From Pneumocystis sp. 'macacae' (Eukaryota > Ascomycota > Pneumocystomycetes > Pneumocystales > Pneumocystaceae): DNA of 64,000 bases. The stretch covers positions 62,001-126,000 of the forward strand of contig CM030735.1 of NCBI GenBank assembly GCA_018127085.1, in the 5' to 3' direction. The translations under genes and the position numbers were made by a program. Under the pieces are notes generated by a model. That model saw only the letters and a program-made list of their open reading frames with translations, searched no databases and was not told the DNA's origin. Shown one piece after another: positions 33,963 to 63,561 of the stretch. How positions within the stretch are numbered: position 1 is the stretch's first letter; each line of letters opens with the position of its first letter.

Positions 33963-35429
33963 ATGCGACGAAAAATGCGTAGCAAAACAGCAATACGCCG
34001 TGGACTACGTCCTACAAAGTAATTAATCCCTCAGAAACAATAGTTTTCTCATACTGTACAGCTTGCAGACTAACCCATTGTCTACATCATCAACAATGCC
34101 ACCAACAGCACCGCGGAAACGCGGACGGCCTTCAAAAAAACCACCCGTACCAATCAACACACCACCACGTTCAGCAATAGAGGTCCATCCTCCGCCACGC
34201 CCAGCATATATCGAGACAAATGATGCACATACAGTGTTACCAGGGACGCATACAATTACAGAAATGGCGCATATATCTCCTTCAGAGACATGTCAACTCC
34301 ATCTAACTCATCCTACAAATTCCTGGACGCATACAACCGATGCATTGGGTTATCCACTAATCATTCCTACAACAATTACGCCCGTGACAATACCAAATGC
34401 AGCAATAACGACCCCTCCTCGCCGCAATCGCGGATTGAGTGTAAATCTTGTTGTGGGAGAAAGCGGCATTGCCCGCGTTATACAGAGCGAGCTTCCGCAA
34501 ATCGAATTGCAACAAGCACAGAAAATACAGCAGACAAAATACGCAAAAGATACAGAAGAGGGGGTATATGCATCTGTATATTCATCTTTAAATAAACAAA
34601 ACGAGGTATATGCGCACTCATTCGAAGCTTCTGACCCACAACACGGAATGTATGCGCTCAATACACCACTAGGAACACCTCTGAATGAGCGGGCATGGAC
34701 TGGAGGGCGGACAGGAAACGATTGTCTAGCATTTGTGACGAGTCGCCAAGGTTTTGTGCGTGTAGAGCCTTTACATGGACGGTGGTCACCAAACTTAGCT
34801 GATTTTGGTGTACAATTAAGCCCAGAAAGCTTATGGGAAAGTTCAGGTGAAGAGGCAACAGACGATGAAAATGTTATGGATGCACGTATAGCAATGAAAC
34901 GACTTGTTGAGCGCCGCCGCACTGTTGGATTAGGTTAGTTTTCTGAATGCTGAAGCAGTATAATATAGAAGTATTGGATAGGAATATGCAAGAAAGGAAA
35001 AATAGTTGTGTGTAAATATTCATTTGAAGCTTCAGTGGATTATTTTTGTATTTTGGACAATTCTAATTGTAGCAACAGGCTTAGATGAATGCTTAGGAGA
35101 AGTATGGAGTACACCATCATTTCGAGCAGGAAAGCGACAGCGACGATTGTGCTGTAAAGCATGTCATATGACATTTCGACAGTTTTGGATATTACAGGCT
35201 CATGAAAAAAAATGTAATGTTAAGGTAAAGCACTAGAAATATTAAATAGTGTATAACTAACAAACACGAGCAAACACCATTTCTTTCGTCAGATTATTTC
35301 GACGATACCGTAGAAGATTGTATTCCATATTTTCACGAAGATACACGTTCAGAGCACAGCATTTCATCTCCTATGTTAATAGAGTCGTTATCAAAGCATC
35401 TAAGTACTCCGCGTAAAAGCACCATATAA
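33963..35429 (+). CDS. AT-hook and C2HC zinc-finger protein, probable DNA-binding regulator
   Basis: Four exons (introns 34019-34061, 34934-35078, 35225-35270) give 410 residues. An arginine-rich opening (MRRKMRSKTAIRRGLRP) is followed by an AT-hook (APRKRGRPSKKPP, about residues 32-44) and a low-complexity T/P/H-rich region. A block that looks structured follows (RTGNDCLAFVTSRQGFVRVEPLHGRWSPNLADFG). The third exon has a zinc-finger-like CCKACHMTFRQFWILQAHEKKC with Cys-X2-Cys and His-X4-Cys. The whole resembles a transcriptional or chromatin regulator, but I cannot name a family. Its codon use is less AT-rich than neighbours. A nearby MCB cluster suggests G1/S control. Confidence 0.65.
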
Positions 35430-40172: not shown

Positions 40173-42103
40173 ATGGAGACTTTTCATCCAGGAGTCAGTG
40201 TTCTTAATACGCCATCCAATCTACAACCTGGAATTGATAGTGGCAAATGGGTTTCTGTTTATCATTGGCCAACTACCGGATATACCGTTTCTCCATTACA
40301 TGATACAGATATGAAATGGGCTCTTCATACAGGCATACCAGTAACAATACCATCAACTATATCTACAATACCATCAAGTATATCACCAATATCTACCTCA
40401 ATACCAACTACTATATCTACACCAATACCGACTACTATATCTACATCATTACCATCAACAGTATCTGCAACAGTACCTTCAGCCATGTCTACAACTATAT
40501 CTACGCCTTTTGGACCAGATACAACAATACCTTCAGCTGATACACATGATACATATGCTTATTCTGTATGGACACCATCAACAAATCATTCAACAGTTCC
40601 GTCAACTATACAAACATCAGCTGTACAAGCTGTACAAGCTATGCAAGCTGTTCAAACAGTTTGCACATATTCTCCTGCACTAACACAATCAACACTAACG
40701 CAACCAGCATTAACAACATTAGCATCATTAACACCCTCCTCACTAACAACGTCTACGCTTCCGTCAGAATGGACATCCTTTGGACGTAAAGAAAAACCAA
40801 CAGGTCATAGTACAGTAAGTAGTGGACCAATTCCTGCTAATCCATTACGTATTTATAAAGATGCAAATGGTGTAGATTGGATTAGTTTTGCATACAGTAG
40901 AGAACGTATTCGTACAGAATATACTATTCGTGGTGATGTTGAAACGATTGATCTTGATACACTTCCTGAAGAATTTAAACAACAGAATTGTGTAAGTAAA
41001 ATAAAACAAAATATAAGGAGAAATAGAAACACTGTAAAAAACAATAACATAAAAGAAAATGTTTTAAAAAGACATAATATTTCAAGCATATCCTTGCTAC
41101 TATGAACATATCTTATTACATTTACACATCTGCTTCATATATTTAGAATTGCTTTTAGCAAGCAATCTTGCCTAGGTAACATTATATATAGGCAAACCTA
41201 GCAGTAGCAATGTTCGAATGTGTAAATAAGTGTTTTCTTCTCCTTTTTTCATACTTTTTTACCAGAATTTTTACTGAAATTTTATAGATCTATCCGCGTG
41301 CACGTGTACCACCAGAACAATATACAGGTACACGACATCGCTATGAAACTGAATGTAATTCAATCGGATGGGCACTTGCAAAATTAAACCCATGTCTACG
41401 CAATAAACGTGGACTAATACAGCGTGCAGTTGATTCATGGCGTAACAAAGAACCAAGTTTACGTAGTCGGCGGATTAGACGAATGGTTGCACTTAATGAT
41501 TTGCATTGCACGCGAGAAAGTGACATAATACACGAAAATACAAATACATTAGGCGTGCTTGACACTTCACTTGTATGTATGTCATCCAATGTGTCACCAT
41601 TGCCACCACAATTCCGACAAGTAGCTTCATATAATGTAGCAGCAGACACATTGCATACACTACATGAAATAGGAAAAAAGACAGGAAAATCAGAAAACGC
41701 AGAAGAAACAGTATTAAAAAAGCCGAAATATATTCTTTTGGATGATAATAGAAAGGGAACACGTGTACGAGTACGTGTTAGTTTAGATGAAGTAAGTTTA
41801 GAAGAAATTCCAGACGCATTTCGACGAGATCATTGTGTATTTCCACGGCGGTTTGTATCAATACATGCATCATATAAGGAATCAGAAGTAGAATCTGAGC
41901 AAACAGAAGAAACAAAAAAAGAACAAGCAATAAATGAAATTGGATGGAAACTTGCTTGGCTTAATATGCGATTATTTGCAAATCGACCAAGTTTTTTACA
42001 ACGCGCAGTCGATGCATATAGAAATAAAATTGAACTAATTACATGTGAGGAAAAATGGGGGACACGCAAAGGACGAAAAGCATGGCTCAGTAAAACAAAT
42101 TAA
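40173..42103 (+). CDS. Protein with two DUF8032 domains, probable fungal regulator
   Basis: Two exons around a long 296-base intron (40992-41287) give 544 residues. The amino 200 residues are low-complexity S/T/P-rich repeats (STIPTTISTPIPTTIS). Then come two copies of one domain. The first spans VDWISFAYSRERIRTEYTIRGDVETIDLDTLPEEFKQQNC-IYPRARVPPEQYTGTRHRYETECNSIGWALAKLNPCLRNKRGLIQRAVDSWRN. The second runs from KYILLDDNRKGTRVRVRVSLDEVSLEEIPDAFRRDHC to GWKLAWLNMRLFANRPSFLQRAVDAYRNK. I recognise this as the fungal DUF8032 family, of unknown role. The intron falls inside the first domain exactly between C and IYP. ATG 40173 follows a stop codon. Confidence 0.75.
41168..41195. repeat. Inverted repeat in the long DUF8032 intron
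   Basis: TTGCCTA (41168-41174) and TAGGCAA (41189-41195) form a perfect 7-bp stem with a 14-base loop. The surrounding intron is also more G+C-rich than other introns here. It could fold in the pre-mRNA or be a protein-binding site. Confidence 0.5.
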
Positions 42104-58053: not shown

Positions 58054-59044
58054 ATGCTAAATAGACATTTGTGCAGCAAAGAGGGCCCGGATATGCCCAA
58101 AGACAGCAGCCCAGAATCTCCTCGCGGCACAGATGTTTTCATAAACCCAGCAACTAGACAAGGCATCCATTTGGAAGCACTTTCTCCGGAAAAAATGGAG
58201 TATTTGATAAAAAAGGCACAGGAAAACCTCGATGCTCTTTCAAAAACATCCCCTGCGTCCAAAGAAGCGGACCATCGCGAAAACACCACACAAAACACCA
58301 GGCAAAAGTAAAAATCTGCCAATGCCATACCTGCTCTAAAAAAACAGCGCTTCTGAATCAAGCAGCTACCACTTCACCCCTGCCTACATATCAAAAACCG
58401 GATGCATCTCCTCTATAAACCCACTGGTCTTCGAGAAAAACTACAAAGTAATTAATGACGATATAAACCGCCCTCTCGACTACAACCCTCCACTCAGTCG
58501 CAAGCAAAGACAAAAAGTAAGTCCCCCACCCCTCAGCTACCATGATGAAAAGCCTTTTCAAAGCAAGCACTGGCATCTGTCTGCTTGCTGTGCAGAATAG
58601 CGTCATAGTTACACTGATACACCCTCCCTTACTGCCCCTCTTCCTGCCCCTCTTCCCCGCACTAACCCCTACTAGAAACAAAAAGAAACCGCTGGCAAGG
58701 ACTGGTTCCACCTCCCCAGGCCCGAACTCACACAGGCCCTCAAGACCGAGCTCCAGCTGCTCAAAATGAGAAACGTCCTCGACCCCAAGCGCCACTACAA
58801 AAAAGACAACCACAGACCCCCTCCACACTACTTCCACATAGGAACCCTCGTCGACGACGTCCTCAACACCCCCTTCCAGGACTTTTCCACAAAAAAAACC
58901 TCCTCCATTCTCGACGAGATCCTCCTCGACCACGACCGCCGCCGCTACTTCAAGGACAGGTATGCCGACATCCAGAGCACCAAGATGTCCGGCAGGAAGG
59001 CCTTCTATGCCGCACTCAAGCAGCGCCGCACCTCCCTCCGCTGA
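58054..59044 (+). CDS. FCF2: rRNA processing protein Fcf2
   Basis: Nucleolar factor required for early pre-rRNA cleavage in 18S maturation. Three exons (introns 58308-58347 and 58517-58675) give 263 residues. Visible family blocks are the carboxy half: KQKETAGKDWFHLPRPELTQALKTELQLLKMRNVLDPKRHYKKD, PPHYFHIGTLVDD and the tail RRRYFKDRYADIQSTKMSGRKAFY. The third exon begins exactly where GKDWFHLPRPE is needed. The start could also be the ATG at 58093 (MPKDSSPE). Base composition rises along the gene: 45% G+C by count at 58441-58500 and 63% at 58921-58980. The second intron is GC-rich and long for this genome. Confidence 0.9.
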
Positions 59045-59349
59045 GCCGCCCTCAGCCAGACCCCCACCCCCGGCACCCGTGTACACACGTGTGTCCGGTT
59101 ACACCGGACACGCCGCCCGCGATTCAACACCGTTGCCGCGCACACCTGTATCCGCCATCTGCATCTACTGCTATATACACTACATGCACTGTATGCCTGC
59201 TAATATACCCACTATGTACATCTGCCACCACACCCCTCTGCTTGCCACATGTACACCTACCGTGCGCAACTGCCATACACGTCGCCCACACTCCGCACAC
59301 CCGCATATACTCCGCACACCCGGACACCCACATGCCCTCTCCCGCTGCT
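59045..59349. other. Convergent spacer in the GC island
   Basis: 0.3 kb between the FCF2 and YOP1 stops. GC- and CA-rich (CACACCCG runs). It contains a perfect 9-bp inverted repeat at 59091-59111. Long open frames here on both strands are chance products of the low number of stops in GC-rich DNA. Confidence 0.6.
59091..59111. repeat. Perfect 9-bp inverted repeat between two gene ends
   Basis: GTGTCCGGT (59091-59099) and ACCGGACAC (59103-59111) flank the 3-base loop TAC. It lies 47 bases after the FCF2 stop, between convergent genes, and could act in 3' end formation. Confidence 0.7.
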
Positions 59350-60057
59350 CTACTCTGCACGCACATGCCCCGCCCCCACACACCGCGCATACACCGGATG
59401 CACCACCGCCCAGTAGATCCTCTCCGCCCCCCGGAACTGCGGCAGCGCCAGATACACAATAAACACCGACTTGGCAAAGTAGTAGCATGCTGCCCCGTCA
59501 GCCTCGCTCCCCCCTGCCACACCTACGCATCCAGTACAGCACCGCCTCCTCATAGTGCTCAACCAGCACCAGCCATGCATAGATCACCCTGTCCCGTCAG
59601 CCCCCCTTCGCGCTGCCCCGGCAACACTCTATGGCAACCCCATGGCAACCCTTCCCACGCTACCCCACACTACCCCGCACTCCTGCCCAAAACAGAAGAG
59701 TGTCCCGCACCCACTCACCAGTATGCAAGCCACTGCGTGCTCCCCGCCCTGCTTGCCTCCTCCACCGCCCTGACCGACCAGTATGCCGCCGGCACACACC
59801 CGAGCACATTCGACAGCAGCCGTCCCCCGACATTTGCAAAGACAAGCACACTGTACACTGCCGCTGCCGCACCCATGACATACACCTGTCGTCAGCACAC
59901 ACCAGTGCCGCGACATACCTTGTTGACTCCCGCCTGCCGCTCAAGACTGTTGAGACAGCCATAGCGGCTGAGCTGCACCGTCAGCCTGCACCACCACTCC
60001 ACATACCTCGCGGTCCAAACGCGAAATCTGCGCCTGCAGTCTGTCCTGGAACGACAT
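59350..60057 (-). CDS. YOP1: ER-shaping TB2/DP1/HVA22 family protein Yop1 (REEP)
   Basis: Yop1 curves tubular ER through hairpin membrane helices. Five exons on the minus strand (60007-60057, 59919-59972, 59719-59885, 59527-59588, 59350-59489) splice to 157 residues. The protein opens MSFQDRLQAQISRLDRE, then LSRYGCLNSLERQAGVNK and VYVMGAAAAVYSVLVFANVGGRLLSNVLGCVPAAYWSVRAVEEASRAGSTQWLAYW, VIYAWLVLVEHYEEAVLYWM and YYFAKSVFIVYLALPQFRGAERIYWAVVHPVYAR, matching the family throughout (NxGG, PAAYxSxRA, LPQFRGAxxIY). Introns are GC-rich, 33-37 bases except one of 130. All donors are GT and acceptors CAG. Codons are strongly GC-ending. It is easily missed because each exon is short. Confidence 0.9.
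59612..59625. promoter_or_regulatory. Near-perfect X-box (RFX site) in YOP1 intron 3
   Basis: GCTGCC-CC-GGCAAC matches the RFX consensus GTNRCC-N(0-3)-RGYAAC in 11 of 12 defined positions. Two further GGCAAC half-sites follow at 59633-59638 and 59644-59649, all within the only long YOP1 intron (59589-59718), about 0.45-0.5 kb from the RFX start. Confidence 0.5.
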
Positions 60058-60113
60058 GCGGGCGCGGAGCACCGCCCGCGCTTAAGAGGGCTTTGCCCTC
60101 GGAGGCGCAGGCA
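60058..60113. promoter_or_regulatory. 56-bp divergent intergenic region of YOP1 and the RFX gene
   Basis: Only 56 bases separate the start codons of YOP1 (60057) and the RFX gene (60114). It includes the perfect hairpin GAGGGC-TTT-GCCCTC at 60086-60100 and CG-rich flanks, with no TATA. Both 5' untranslated leaders must overlap the other gene unless starts lie further inside. Confidence 0.7.
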
Positions 60114-61909
60114 ATGATGCGCTATGGGTTTGGCGAAGACTCGTTTGGCGACCGGGGAGTCGACGCAGATGCAGACCACCAGGAGCTGCGGCGGGTGACA
60201 CTTGAGAATCTGTCGCTGTCGATGGAGGAGCTTGCAGGCAAGGTGCGGGAGGAGGAGTGTGGTGCACAGGCAGAGAAGTATCGGCAGGTCTTTGGGATTA
60301 GCTGGTGGGTTGAGGAGCGGGGGACAGGCTGACAGACAGGCTGATGCGGCACTGCGAGGCAATCCCAGACGTAGCAGTGCCGCGGAACAGGATCTATGCG
60401 CACTATGTTGCAGTCTGTGCAGGAGAGCGGATCAAGCCGCTGAACCCGGCGTCGTTTGGGAAGCTGGTCCGGATGGTCTATCCCGACATCAAGACGCGGC
60501 GGCTGGGGGTCCGGGGGCAGTCCAAGTACCACTACTGCGGGATGAAGCTGCGGGACGAGGCGGGGGCAGAGCAGGGCGAGCGGGGAGAGCGGGGGTTTCT
60601 CAAGGGCCTGGAGCCGCTGCTGGAGGACAAGGGCGATGGGGGAGAGGCACGGGGGGGGCGGGAGGGGTGCGTGGAGTTTGTCTTCAAGTCAAAGCACCTG
60701 CACTTCCCGGCACAGGGCGCAGACCGGGACCGGGGGGCGTTTGCGCTGCCGGGGATCGAGGAGTATGTGGGGAGCGAGGTTGACGGGGACACAAAGAACA
60801 CGCTGACGTCGCTGTACACGTCGCACTGCAGCTCGCTGATTGAGTCGGTGCGGTACATGCGGCTGAAGCAGGTGGGTGTGTGGTTGCCGGGGCAACGCTG
60901 AATGTGCAGTTTCTGACAATGACGGGGTCGTTCCACAGCTCGCTGACGGGGGCGGTGCAGGAGCTGCTTGCGTCGGAACAGGTGGCGAAGTGGGTGCAGA
61001 AGGCGGACTTTGAGATGTACAGGGTGGGTGTGTGTGGGGGCGAGGGGGGGCTGACGGGGACAGGAGATTGTGCGGCTGCTGTCGCCGCTGGCGCTGCAGG
61101 TGGTGCCGCCGCAGATCCTGTCGTCGCTGCGGGTGCTGTCGTCGACGCTGATCAGCCACCTGACGCACACGCTGTCGATGCAGCCGGGACACTTTGTGCG
61201 GGCGAAGGTGGTGCCGGCGGTGGCGTTTTCGGCGCTGCTGTCGCGGCTGCTGCGGGTAAACGACACGGCCCATGCAGCGGCGCGGTTTCTGACGAATCCG
61301 GCGGACCGGGAGCTGATGAAGAACGACTGGGTGCGGTATATTGATGCACGGGCGATCGTGAACCGGGAGCTGCCGTGCAGGGAGGATGAGGCGGTCCGGA
61401 TCCTCAACGACATTATCCAGCTGCTGTATGGGGCGGGACAGGGCAAGGGGGAGAAGGGGGAGGAGGGCCGGGAGGGGGGGAGCGGCCTGGACGGGGCGCT
61501 GAACCGGTGGGCAGACTATTTTTCGGCGCTGCCGAGCCGGTTCCCGAATGTGTCGCCGAAGCTGTTTCTGCTGTGTGCGGGGACGGTTGAGACGGCGATT
61601 CTGCGGGAGATCACGGTGGCGGGGGGGGAGTCGTTTGGGGCGTGGTGGGTTGTGCGGTGCTGGATCGACGAGTGGATGTGCTGGATCAGCGAGCGCGGGG
61701 GGTTTCTGGAGATCCAGCTGATGGACCAGATCGGGCTTGTGCCCGACAAGGCGGGCGACGCGCCGGTGCTGCCTGAGGATGCAGGGGCGACGCTTGCAGC
61801 GGCACTGTGCATGGACCCGGGAGCGGCGAATGGGGCGATTGAGCCGCACGCCGACACGAAGAACGACGACTATCTCAGCATGGTTTTTGATGCGAACGGC
61901 AGCACATAG
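60114..61909 (+). CDS. RFX-family winged-helix transcription factor (Sak1/Rfx1 type)
   Basis: Four exons (introns 60305-60339, 60872-60909, 61024-61063) give 560 residues. The RFX DNA-binding domain starts near residue 55: EKYRQVFGISWLMRHCEAIPDVAVPRNRIYAHYVAVCAGERIKPLNPASFGKLVRMVYPDIKTRRLGVRGQSKYHYCGMKL, with all contacts for the X-box recognisable. The carboxy part includes the conserved B/C and dimerisation regions (LQVVPPQILSSLRVLSSTLISHLTHTLS, AHAAARFLTNPADRELMKNDW, LNRWADYFSALPSRFPNVSPKLFLLCAGTVETAILREI). Fission yeast Sak1 and budding yeast Rfx1/Crt1 are relatives; Crt1 represses DNA damage genes and its own gene. The amino part is very short. Codons end almost only in G or C. Confidence 0.93.
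60883..60896 (+). promoter_or_regulatory. Perfect X-box inside intron 2 of the RFX gene
   Basis: GTTGCC-GG-GGCAAC agrees with the RFX consensus GTNRCC-N(0-3)-RGYAAC at every defined position and is a full inverted repeat. It lies entirely within a 38-base intron of the RFX gene itself (60872-60909), so it is free of coding constraint. Confidence 0.65.
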
Positions 61910-61920
61910 CAGATGCCTGT

Positions 61921-61944
61921 GCGGCACGCCGTGCGGCACGCCGT
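61921..61944. repeat. 12-bp tandem duplication upstream of the DnaJ gene
   Basis: GCGGCACGCCGT occurs twice directly adjacent, right after the RFX stop codon. A nearby GGCAAC half X-box lies at about 61,963. Confidence 0.85.
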
Positions 61945-61980
61945 GGTTCAGGCACCCTTGGCAACCGCAGCAGCAACGGG

Positions 61981-61998
61981 TCACGTGTGTGCACGTGA
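61981..61998. promoter_or_regulatory. Paired CACGTG boxes in an interrupted palindrome
   Basis: TCACGTG and CACGTGA face each other across a 4-base spacer (61981-61998). CACGTG is the classic bHLH site (Cbf1/Pho4 type). It is located about 170 bases before the DnaJ start codon. Confidence 0.5.
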
Positions 61999-62012
61999 GC
62001 AAACCACGAGCA

Positions 62013-62025
62013 GAAGCTTCTCGAA
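62013..62025 (+). promoter_or_regulatory. Heat shock element upstream of the DnaJ gene
   Basis: GAAGCTTCTCGAA is a perfect three-unit HSE (GAA-nn-TTC-nn-GAA), the binding site of trimeric heat shock factor. It sits 144 bases before the start of a SIS1/psi1-like Hsp40 gene, a known HSF target class. Confidence 0.75.
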
Positions 62026-62168
62026 CGTTTGTCGTTTATCGGCCGAAGGCCAAAGATATAAAAGGCCGACGTCCCGCTCAGGCAGGCAAGAGAAGCCGTC
62101 AAGAAGAGGTCGAGAGGAGAGAGCGAGAGGACGGAGAGGCGGGCAGACGGATGGGAAATCAGTAGAAA

Positions 62169-63351
62169 ATGGTCAAAGATCAGAAGCTTTATCGGTTTCT
62201 GGAGATTGGGCCGGATGCAGACGAAAACGCGATCCGGAAGGCGTACCGGAAGCTGGCGCTTAAGTACCATCCGGACAAGAATCCGGCGGGGGCGGAGCGG
62301 TTTAAAGGTGCAGGAAGGATGGGCGTTTGGGCGTGTCTGATGTTTTGGCGCAGAAATTAGTCTTGCGTATGAGATCTTGAGTGACCCGAAGCGGCGACAG
62401 CTATACGACCAGTATGGGCTGACGGAGGGCCAGCCGCAGCCCGATGCGGGGTTTCCGGGGGGGCCGGGGGGGTTCCATGGGTTTTCGACGCGGATGGGCA
62501 ATGGACAGTCGTTTTTCTTTTCAACCGGGGGGCCGGACGGGGGATCGCGGTTTAATCCGTCGTCGGCACACGATGTCTTTGCATCGTTTATGAAGAATTT
62601 TGGAAGCAGCTTTGGTGCCGGCGATGCCGACGATTTCAACATGGGGGATATGTCAGGGGGCTTTGGACGCTTCTTCAATATAGGGGGGGGCGGGGGGATG
62701 CATGGTGCGCGTATGGGCGATGCTGCAATGAAGCGGGACAGTGCCGCCGAGCGGGAGATTGTTACCAAGCCGCTTCCGCTGACACTCGAAGAGTAAGTGC
62801 TGCTTGCCCGGTGTTTTGCACGCGCTGCTTTTTCGTGCCGCGTCTGACCCGTTCGCAGATTATTCAAGGGCACAACCAAGCGTATGAAGATTAAGCGCAA
62901 GGTCTGTGCTGGCGGGACGATGCGCCAGGAAGAACGCATTCTCGAGGTCCAGGTCAAGCCCGGCTGGAAACCCGGCACCAAGATCAAGTTTTCCCGAGAA
63001 GGCGATGAAAAGCCCAATGGCACCGTGCAAGATGTACACTTTATCGTCGAGGAAAAGCCGCATCCTCTCTTCAAAAGAATAGGCGATAATCTGATCACCG
63101 ACTTGGAGCTTACATTAGTCGAAGCGCTTACCGGGTTCTCGAAAACCGTTACTACTATCGATGGAAAGCATTTGAAGATTACAAGTACGAATCCAGTACA
63201 GCCGAACCACGAAATATCCTATCCTGGTCATGGCATGCCTCATTCCAAAGATCCTTCTGTACGTGGAGATCTAGTCGTTGTCTGCAAAGTCACCTTCCCG
63301 TTAACCATCTCGCCTGAAAAAAAAGCAGCACTTAAGCAAATATTTACGTAG
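62169..63351 (+). CDS. SIS1: Type II DnaJ (Hsp40) chaperone, Sis1/Psi1
   Basis: Cytosolic/nuclear Hsp70 co-chaperone. Three exons (introns 62308-62353 and 62793-62858) give 356 residues. The J-domain ([34 protein letters not shown], with HPD) is followed by a G/F-rich region ([29 protein letters not shown]) and the two carboxy peptide-binding domains ([81 protein letters not shown]). No zinc-finger cysteine repeats, so type II. Within its last exon G+C drops from 33 of 60 bases at 62881-62940 to 21 of 60 at 63301-63360, marking the right edge of the GC island. An HSE precedes it. Confidence 0.95.
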
Positions 63352-63561
63352 AATCAGCATGATATACATATATATTATAGCAATCCGATTTCGAATTCCC
63401 ATTAAATATCGTATATATGGCAACTGTGTATAATAAATAGATGTGGTTTTTTCAGCGAAAGAGCAAAAAATTAAATGCTTGGCTGATGTTTTAAATTTTC
63501 ATATTACGCATAAAATGTACATATAAACATTTGAAATACCATATTTAAAATAACAACTCGT

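Follow-up and report, generated by a model that had tools for sequence, protein, structure and literature searches.

The 64,000-nucleotide stretch of DNA considered here, from the macaque lung fungus Pneumocystis sp. 'macacae' (C16:62001-126000, hereafter the window) raises the question of what could have made about 5 kb of an AT-rich genome strongly GC-rich in coding, intron, and spacer sequence alike. A first-pass annotation, made from the letters alone, had described this island and suggested GC-biased gene conversion at a recombination hotspot as its cause. Recomputation placed the island at 58233-63110, bore out the compositional ramps inside genes by windowed G+C, and returned the base counts of that annotation exactly, with 45, 33, and 21 G or C among the 60 bases of 61741-61800, 62881-62940, and 63301-63360, respectively. 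Missed there was a change in the sign of the GC skew at about 60.05 kb. Nor is the island a single odd patch, as islands of the same kind were found genome-wide. On either side of their centres, C stands for the most part on one strand and G on the other, nearly independently of gene direction.

Composition and strand polarity of the islands

The island of the window is made up of two arms that meet at a centre:
58233..63110, no strand: GC island with ramps at both ends (301-bp windows of at least 47% G+C)
58233..60045, no strand: left arm, + strand C-rich, G+C 0.57, GC skew -0.40
60046..63110, no strand: right arm, + strand G-rich, G+C 0.62, GC skew +0.25
60046..60046, no strand: centre, where the cumulative GC skew switches from fall to rise

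Across 1-kb intervals with starts in the leftmost 56.5 kb of the window, mean G+C was 0.288 (standard deviation 0.052, maximum 0.463 at about 33.9 kb), compared with an island peak of 0.668 per 1 kb. All site classes are raised. The spacers between YOP1 and RFX and between RFX and DnaJ have a G+C of 0.75 and 0.59, respectively, and the flanking spacers 0.23 and 0.26. RFX introns reach 0.66, 0.63, and 0.75, and RFX exon 4 reaches 0.66. The FCF2 exon has a G+C at third codon positions (GC3) of 0.80 and RFX exon 4 one of 0.85, versus 0.16-0.25 in five flanking gene pieces matched by Pfam.

Twenty stretches of 10 kb (L017-L036) were taken from the source assembly (8.27 Mb, 19 contigs) for reading beside the window. 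Passages of PMC7940399 report 16 scaffolds from Nanopore and Illumina sequencing for this genome. The S16 pattern has 235 forward-strand matches genome-wide, and all nine internal S16 places on C1-C5 (L019-L027) carried an island. L030, chosen as a control, proved to carry an island truncated at its right edge and was tallied as such, while the subtelomeric L028 and L029 (C4 and C3) and L036 (the 10.8-kb contig C19) were counted neither as islands nor as controls. No island was found in the 10-kb stretches L018 and L031-L035. The full set of readable islands thus comprises L019-L027, L030, and that of the window, and all eleven share one anatomy. The complete ones, ten in number, are 3.2-5.2 kb wide, and all eleven peak at 69-77% G+C in 301-bp windows.

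Beyond the stretches read, places of the same kind were sought by two sequence patterns. Runs of strong bases (G or C) bounded by weak ones (A or T) number 33 of at least 18 bases, 21 of 17, 16 of 16, and 30 of 15 genome-wide, and some of them are subtelomeric or pure-G runs. The second pattern, CCCTAACCCT, has 134+80 matches (telomere ends included) compared with 5+3 for the reversed pattern. The cluster test used 79 of the 100 runs (21 were excluded as pure G or C, near contig ends, or on C19) and 89 of 100 listed CCCTAACCCT matches (up to C10; 214 in total), with 11 near contig ends excluded. These 168, among the matches listed, fall into at least 63 clusters, at least 37 of which hold two or more matches, and single-match clusters are not necessarily islands.

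The + strand GC skew is negative to the left of the flip (-0.18 to -0.42) and positive to its right (+0.18 to +0.41) in 11 of 11 islands. The polarity also holds in all eleven about a midpoint set without reference to skew, with only +0.03 on the right of the truncated L030. At this midpoint the left-right skew difference had a median of 0.48 and a minimum of 0.35 in islands, compared with 0.33 at the 99th percentile and at most 0.38 in 4000 control windows drawn from L017, L018, L031-L035, and positions 1-56000 of the window. With the flip chosen freely, island values were at least 0.36 with a median of 0.65, and those of the controls reached 0.49 at the 99th percentile and 0.64 at most. The strongest test of polarity is given by the opposed pairs in the unread clusters where, among the matches listed, the C-rich match stood on the left in 51 of 51 pairs in 11 of 11 clusters. 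Opposed pairs at the fetched places were in order in 27 cases and wrong in three, all three in L027.

Gene direction was separated from side with 33 gene segments from ten islands. Frames were taken from Pfam matches because gene calling by GC3 and amino-acid scores proved unreliable; some frames run past the match, and several segments share one gene. L030 had no Pfam match in the two frames tested and lies outside this set. Side determined the sign of the skew at fourfold sites in 30 of 33 segments, including 10 of the 11 oriented towards the centre and 20 of the 22 oriented away from it. The UCH gene of L027 spans the centre, and its sign flips within the gene. Introns and spacers of the window island likewise follow their side, except for DnaJ intron 2 with zero skew. 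The 1650 fourfold sites that lie 300-1800 bp from the centre were read on the strand with its 3' end towards it, where C makes up 0.685, T 0.147, G 0.107, and A 0.062 of the bases.

When the eleven islands are folded about their centres, G+C declines from 0.66 in the middle to 0.45 at 2.0 kb and then to 0.30 at 3.4 kb. Polarity starts at 0.18 over the innermost 200 bp, rises to about 0.34 between 400 and 1000 bp, and then drops to 0.26 at 1.8 kb and to 0.03 at 2.8 kb. The reach of both polarity and G+C is that of resected tails and heteroduplex. A start codon could be placed in four islands, and in all four the centre lies near it: 10 bp away for LSD1, 70 bp for Mon2, 148 bp for H3, and at the divergent YOP1 and RFX starts in the window, where position 60046 falls 11 bp within the YOP1 start and 68 bp from the first RFX ATG.

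Probable meiotic break hotspots and rival explanations

The islands probably represent the evolutionary footprint of fixed, long-lived hotspots of meiotic double-strand breaks, often at promoters. The hotspot footprint proposed in the first-pass annotation is thus the best fit, although its ordinary form fails, since C and G are split by strand. G+C is raised at all site classes (in the window, and for GC3 in ten islands) and tapers over kilobases, as at conversion hotspots; the equal gain of G and C on each strand is absent. Ordinary GC-biased gene conversion does not fit because it should raise G and C alike per strand. In the mechanism proposed, Spo11 would cut at the island centre, the 5' strands would be resected by 1-2 kb, and the surviving 3' tail (+ strand on the left, - strand on the right) would pair with the homologue. 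Correction of heteroduplex mismatches would then swap weak for strong bases and seldom remove a C of the tail, so that over many meioses the tail strand would be driven towards C. Mismatch repair handles C-C and C-T mismatches poorly, which would spare tail C. That heteroduplex repair sparing C on the invading 3' tail has polarised conversion and produced the mirror-image islands is plausible, at somewhat less than even chances. A Spo11-type domain (PF04406) was found on C12 with an E-value of 4.0e-13. The uracil-glycosylase family has two loci in the genome, which keeps a base-excision route in play. For three other Pneumocystis species, passages of PMC4764891 report that genes for mating and meiosis exist and are transcribed.

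Several points weigh against the break-hotspot explanation. Its C-sparing repair step, which draws on general preferences of mismatch repair, is the weakest link, and human break-associated mutations remove single-strand C, the opposite sign, in the part of PMC7615360 concerned with them. The free-flip control maximum of 0.64 falls in the island range, so that single islands overlap the controls. Three of the 33 segments are off-sign, namely two RPS23 halves less than 200 bp from the centre and the last DnaJ exon at 2.8-3.3 kb out. The centres of L026 and L027 lie inside genes (RPS23 and UCH, respectively) and not at a known start codon. Telomere-like and 11-bp repeats inside the islands are not accounted for by break hotspots either.

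The first of these repeats, CCCTAACCC, is a degenerate telomere-strand motif that occurs 24 times in island cores compared with 0.1 expected from a second-order Markov model, in 7 of 11 islands (L019, L022, L023, L025, L026, L027, and L030). Across the eleven islands, 15 of 17 + strand copies lie left of centre and 9 of 9 - strand copies right of it, with both exceptions in L027. Telomere healing of broken ends was ruled out as the source of CCCTAACCC by this orientation, which is opposite, because a healed left fragment would show TTAGGG on the + strand. CGCATACAC was counted 29 times compared with 1.5 expected from the same type of model, also in 7 of 11 islands, and comes from arrays in which a unit of 11 bp near GCATACACCGC is repeated in tandem. 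These minisatellite-like arrays occur in unrelated islands and in both orientations. GCGCATACACC has 16+17 matches genome-wide compared with none for the reversed pattern. As for a shared centre motif, the search of 9-mers covered whole islands, with no search restricted to centres, and gave two repeat families and C/G-runs among the k-mers listed. Positions of 11-bp arrays relative to the island centre, and the copy in the window, are:
L019: +1496
L020: +882..+992
L021: +1086..+1193
L022: +383..+857
L024: +550..+766
L025: -769..-637
59270..59400 of the window, no strand: 11-bp-type repeat copy of the window island, with CGCATACAC near -660 and CGCATATAC near -744 relative to the centre

Among the rival explanations, recurrent breaks might act through an error-prone step that adds C to the tail (or G to its complement) as new mutations, instead of through biased conversion. 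A rarity of A on the tail strand is what loss of A would give, and A is the rarest base there. The geometry agrees as well: passages of PMC7615360 describe human meiotic hotspots at which new mutations are strand-asymmetric for 2 kb to either side but not in the central 100 bp, with some classes peaking at 700-800 bp, a layout that the reach and central dip of the P. macacae islands resemble. The human spectrum given there, however, consists of rare variants that lose C and A on the forward strand, whereas the islands are a fixed composition that gains C. The parallel with human hotspots thus lies in geometry and not in spectrum, and mutagenesis of the human type as the sole cause is ruled out by the wrong sign for C. 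Deamination of single-stranded C would lower C too, and break mutagenesis in general is considered unlikely. Replication origins with a leading/lagging-strand bias are a still less likely source of the polarity. A skew that turns from negative to positive from left to right would fit a bidirectional origin whose leading strand is G-rich, and promoter positions suit fungal origins, but the polarity is gone within 3 kb instead of extending over a replicon, and strand bias alone does not double G+C. At the window locus, moreover, the skew outside the island is negative to the left (-0.18 over 40 kb) as well as to the right (-0.15 over about 10 kb).

Asymmetry from transcription or R-loops at divergent promoters, or from codon choice, would follow the direction of genes. 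While 22 of the 33 segments do run away from the centre, those running towards it carry, with one exception in eleven, the sign of their side against their own direction; the flip within UCH and the introns and spacers of the window, apart from DnaJ intron 2, obey side as well, which makes this explanation very improbable. The sharp contrast in composition might also suggest a horizontal insert or a chimeric assembly, against which the first-pass annotation argued. No sign of either was seen: the ramps lie in intact genes, FCF2 has only one match in the whole genome, and the best match of the window's RFX is PMAC_001560 of Pneumocystis 'macacae', with all named matches ranking above the first non-Pneumocystis fungus being Pneumocystis proteins. 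For two genes of other islands, the match is PMAC_002103 (Mon2) and PMAC_002240 (LSD1), and the named close relatives of both in the similarity ranking are likewise all from Pneumocystis. Judged by such similarity, the island genes are native. Mon2 passes from GC-driven to ordinary composition in one open frame, the RFX of P0002, a relative from another source, is equally GC-driven, and the same anatomy recurs at 11 of 11 loci. Foreign or chimeric origin therefore has a negligible probability.

Where hotspots shift or breaks are diffuse, any strand polarity in conversion is difficult to detect. In P. macacae, discrete and probably long-lived sites near saturation make the polarity visible in plain sequence. 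If the islands are break hotspots, base sequence alone would provide a break map for a fungus without reproducible culture, together with evidence on the organisation of Pneumocystis meiosis, and composition at neutral sites would read out the repair preference for each mismatch, including those that escape repair. Whether mismatch repair or base-excision repair is the source of GC bias would become testable, because the two routes should predict different strand patterns. Gene models, protein comparisons, and chromatin immunoprecipitation (ChIP) peaks in islands may be distorted.

Protein change and related systems

The ratio of GARP to FYMINK residues was used as a measure of GC-driven protein composition. 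For RFX it was 1.59 in P. macacae and 1.65 in P0002 but lower in P. canis (0.89), P. murina (0.84), and a piece from P. oryctolagi (0.97), and it ranged from 0.97 to 2.38 among the eight proteins compared outside Pneumocystis. P0002, whose RFX lies on a 2751-bp contig and is 78% identical to that of the window, is probably a second Pneumocystis lineage carrying the RFX island. In the first 150 residues of Mon2, the ratio was 3.22 in P. macacae, 1.78 in P. jirovecii, 1.76 in P. oryctolagi, 0.40 in P. canis, 0.69 in P. carinii, and 0.73 in P. wakefieldiae, and beyond residue 600 it was 0.18-0.37 in all six species. Mon2 identity between P. macacae and P. jirovecii was 64% in the island part and 83% outside it, compared with 66 and 65% between P. 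canis and P. carinii; the other pairs without P. macacae fall by at most 7 points. On these comparisons, protein change in the island part of Mon2 is faster and GC-driven in P. macacae. Because of the six-species ratios and pairwise identities, traces of the Mon2 island can be attributed to P. jirovecii and P. oryctolagi in common, with the greatest effect in P. macacae. LSD1 had the same shift as Mon2 in weaker form.

The RFX encoded in the window has 560 aa with the exons joined here, and the public model PMAC_001560 (511 aa) is missing stretches of it, including part of the DNA-binding domain. The P. jirovecii models of Mon2 and LSD1 also lack stretches in the island part, which restricts the comparison with that species. 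Gene models inside islands seem unreliable, and dating of the islands from proteins is only partial because of the gaps in the P. jirovecii models.

In species that lack PRDM9, including birds, dogs, and budding yeast, GC-biased gene conversion occurs at promoter hotspots that are stable. Like the islands, these hotspots have a kilobase-scale G+C peak at all site classes, often at gene starts, and can persist; unlike them, they have a far smaller shift in G+C and are not known to have a near-complete separation of C and G by strand. Polak and Arndt reportedly found strand asymmetries at human CpG islands that change sign at GC-rich promoters as the islands do, but these are said to be weak and long-range, whereas the P. 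macacae islands are near saturation at neutral sites within about 3 kb. Runaway GC evolution in gerbils, as treated in passages of PMC7403616, resembles the islands in its extreme local G+C, faster protein change, and attribution to recombination. It affects a few large regions or gene clusters of an animal, unlike the many mirror-image islands of 3-5 kb, and "GC skew" in those passages means GC bias and not strand asymmetry. Mis12 ChIP peaks of P. macacae number about 4-6 per chromosome, tend towards GC-rich regions, and may be artefacts according to PMC10327204. The section of that paper on these peaks neither describes nor explains the GC-rich regions, and the terms "GC skew" and "recombination" are absent from its main text. 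Among the titles listed for Pneumocystis together with GC-biased conversion, GC skew, GC-rich regions, recombination, hotspots, or isochores, none describes such islands, in a search of titles only and with most subscription journals outside it.

Genes of the window island and further observations

The genes of the window island are, from left to right:
58676..59044, + strand: last exon of FCF2 (Pfam PF08698), GC3 0.80, fourfold skew -0.96
59390..60057, - strand: YOP1-like gene, approximate extent from translation, running away from the centre
60114..61909, + strand: RFX transcription factor gene (Pfam) with four exons and GC-rich introns of 35-44 bp
62169..63351, + strand: DnaJ gene (Pfam), with a G+C of 0.59 in exon 2 that drops to 0.48 in exon 3

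Of the gene names given in the first-pass annotation, FCF2, RFX, and DnaJ were upheld by Pfam. YOP1 was not, as no YOP1-type domain appeared in the Pfam scan of three fragments; the gene is presumably YOP1, a label given by eye. The FCF2 exon points towards the centre and has C-ending codons. RFX, which runs away from it, has a GC3 of 0.84-0.85 and G-ending codons, with a fourfold skew of +0.69 to +0.84. The skew stops in DnaJ exon 3.

Outside the island, three long open frames without a Pfam match lie on the + strand of the window at 34027-34935, 40173-41102, and 41288-42100, the first of which sits on a modest G+C bump (45% per kb) without island arms. A further small bump was observed at L017:7001-8000 (C16:133001-134000), with 40 and 47% G+C per 500 bp and a skew of -0.2 and then +0.2. 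It may be an island that is weak or young, at a distance of 13 kb from that of the window.

The GC run CCGCCCGCGCCGCCCCCC or its complement occurs near contig ends at C3:306, C4:553169, C8:480287, C10:472864, C13:6509, C15:374631, C16:10593, and C16:338686, and is a subtelomeric repeat distinct from the internal islands. Isolated runs of G or C (15 to at least 18 bases) were also found in the AT-rich genome at C6:520751, C10:306591, C10:17583, C12:166683, C12:445201, C2:14234, C5:13245, C13:16012, and C14:19666, several of them within 20-25 kb of a contig end.

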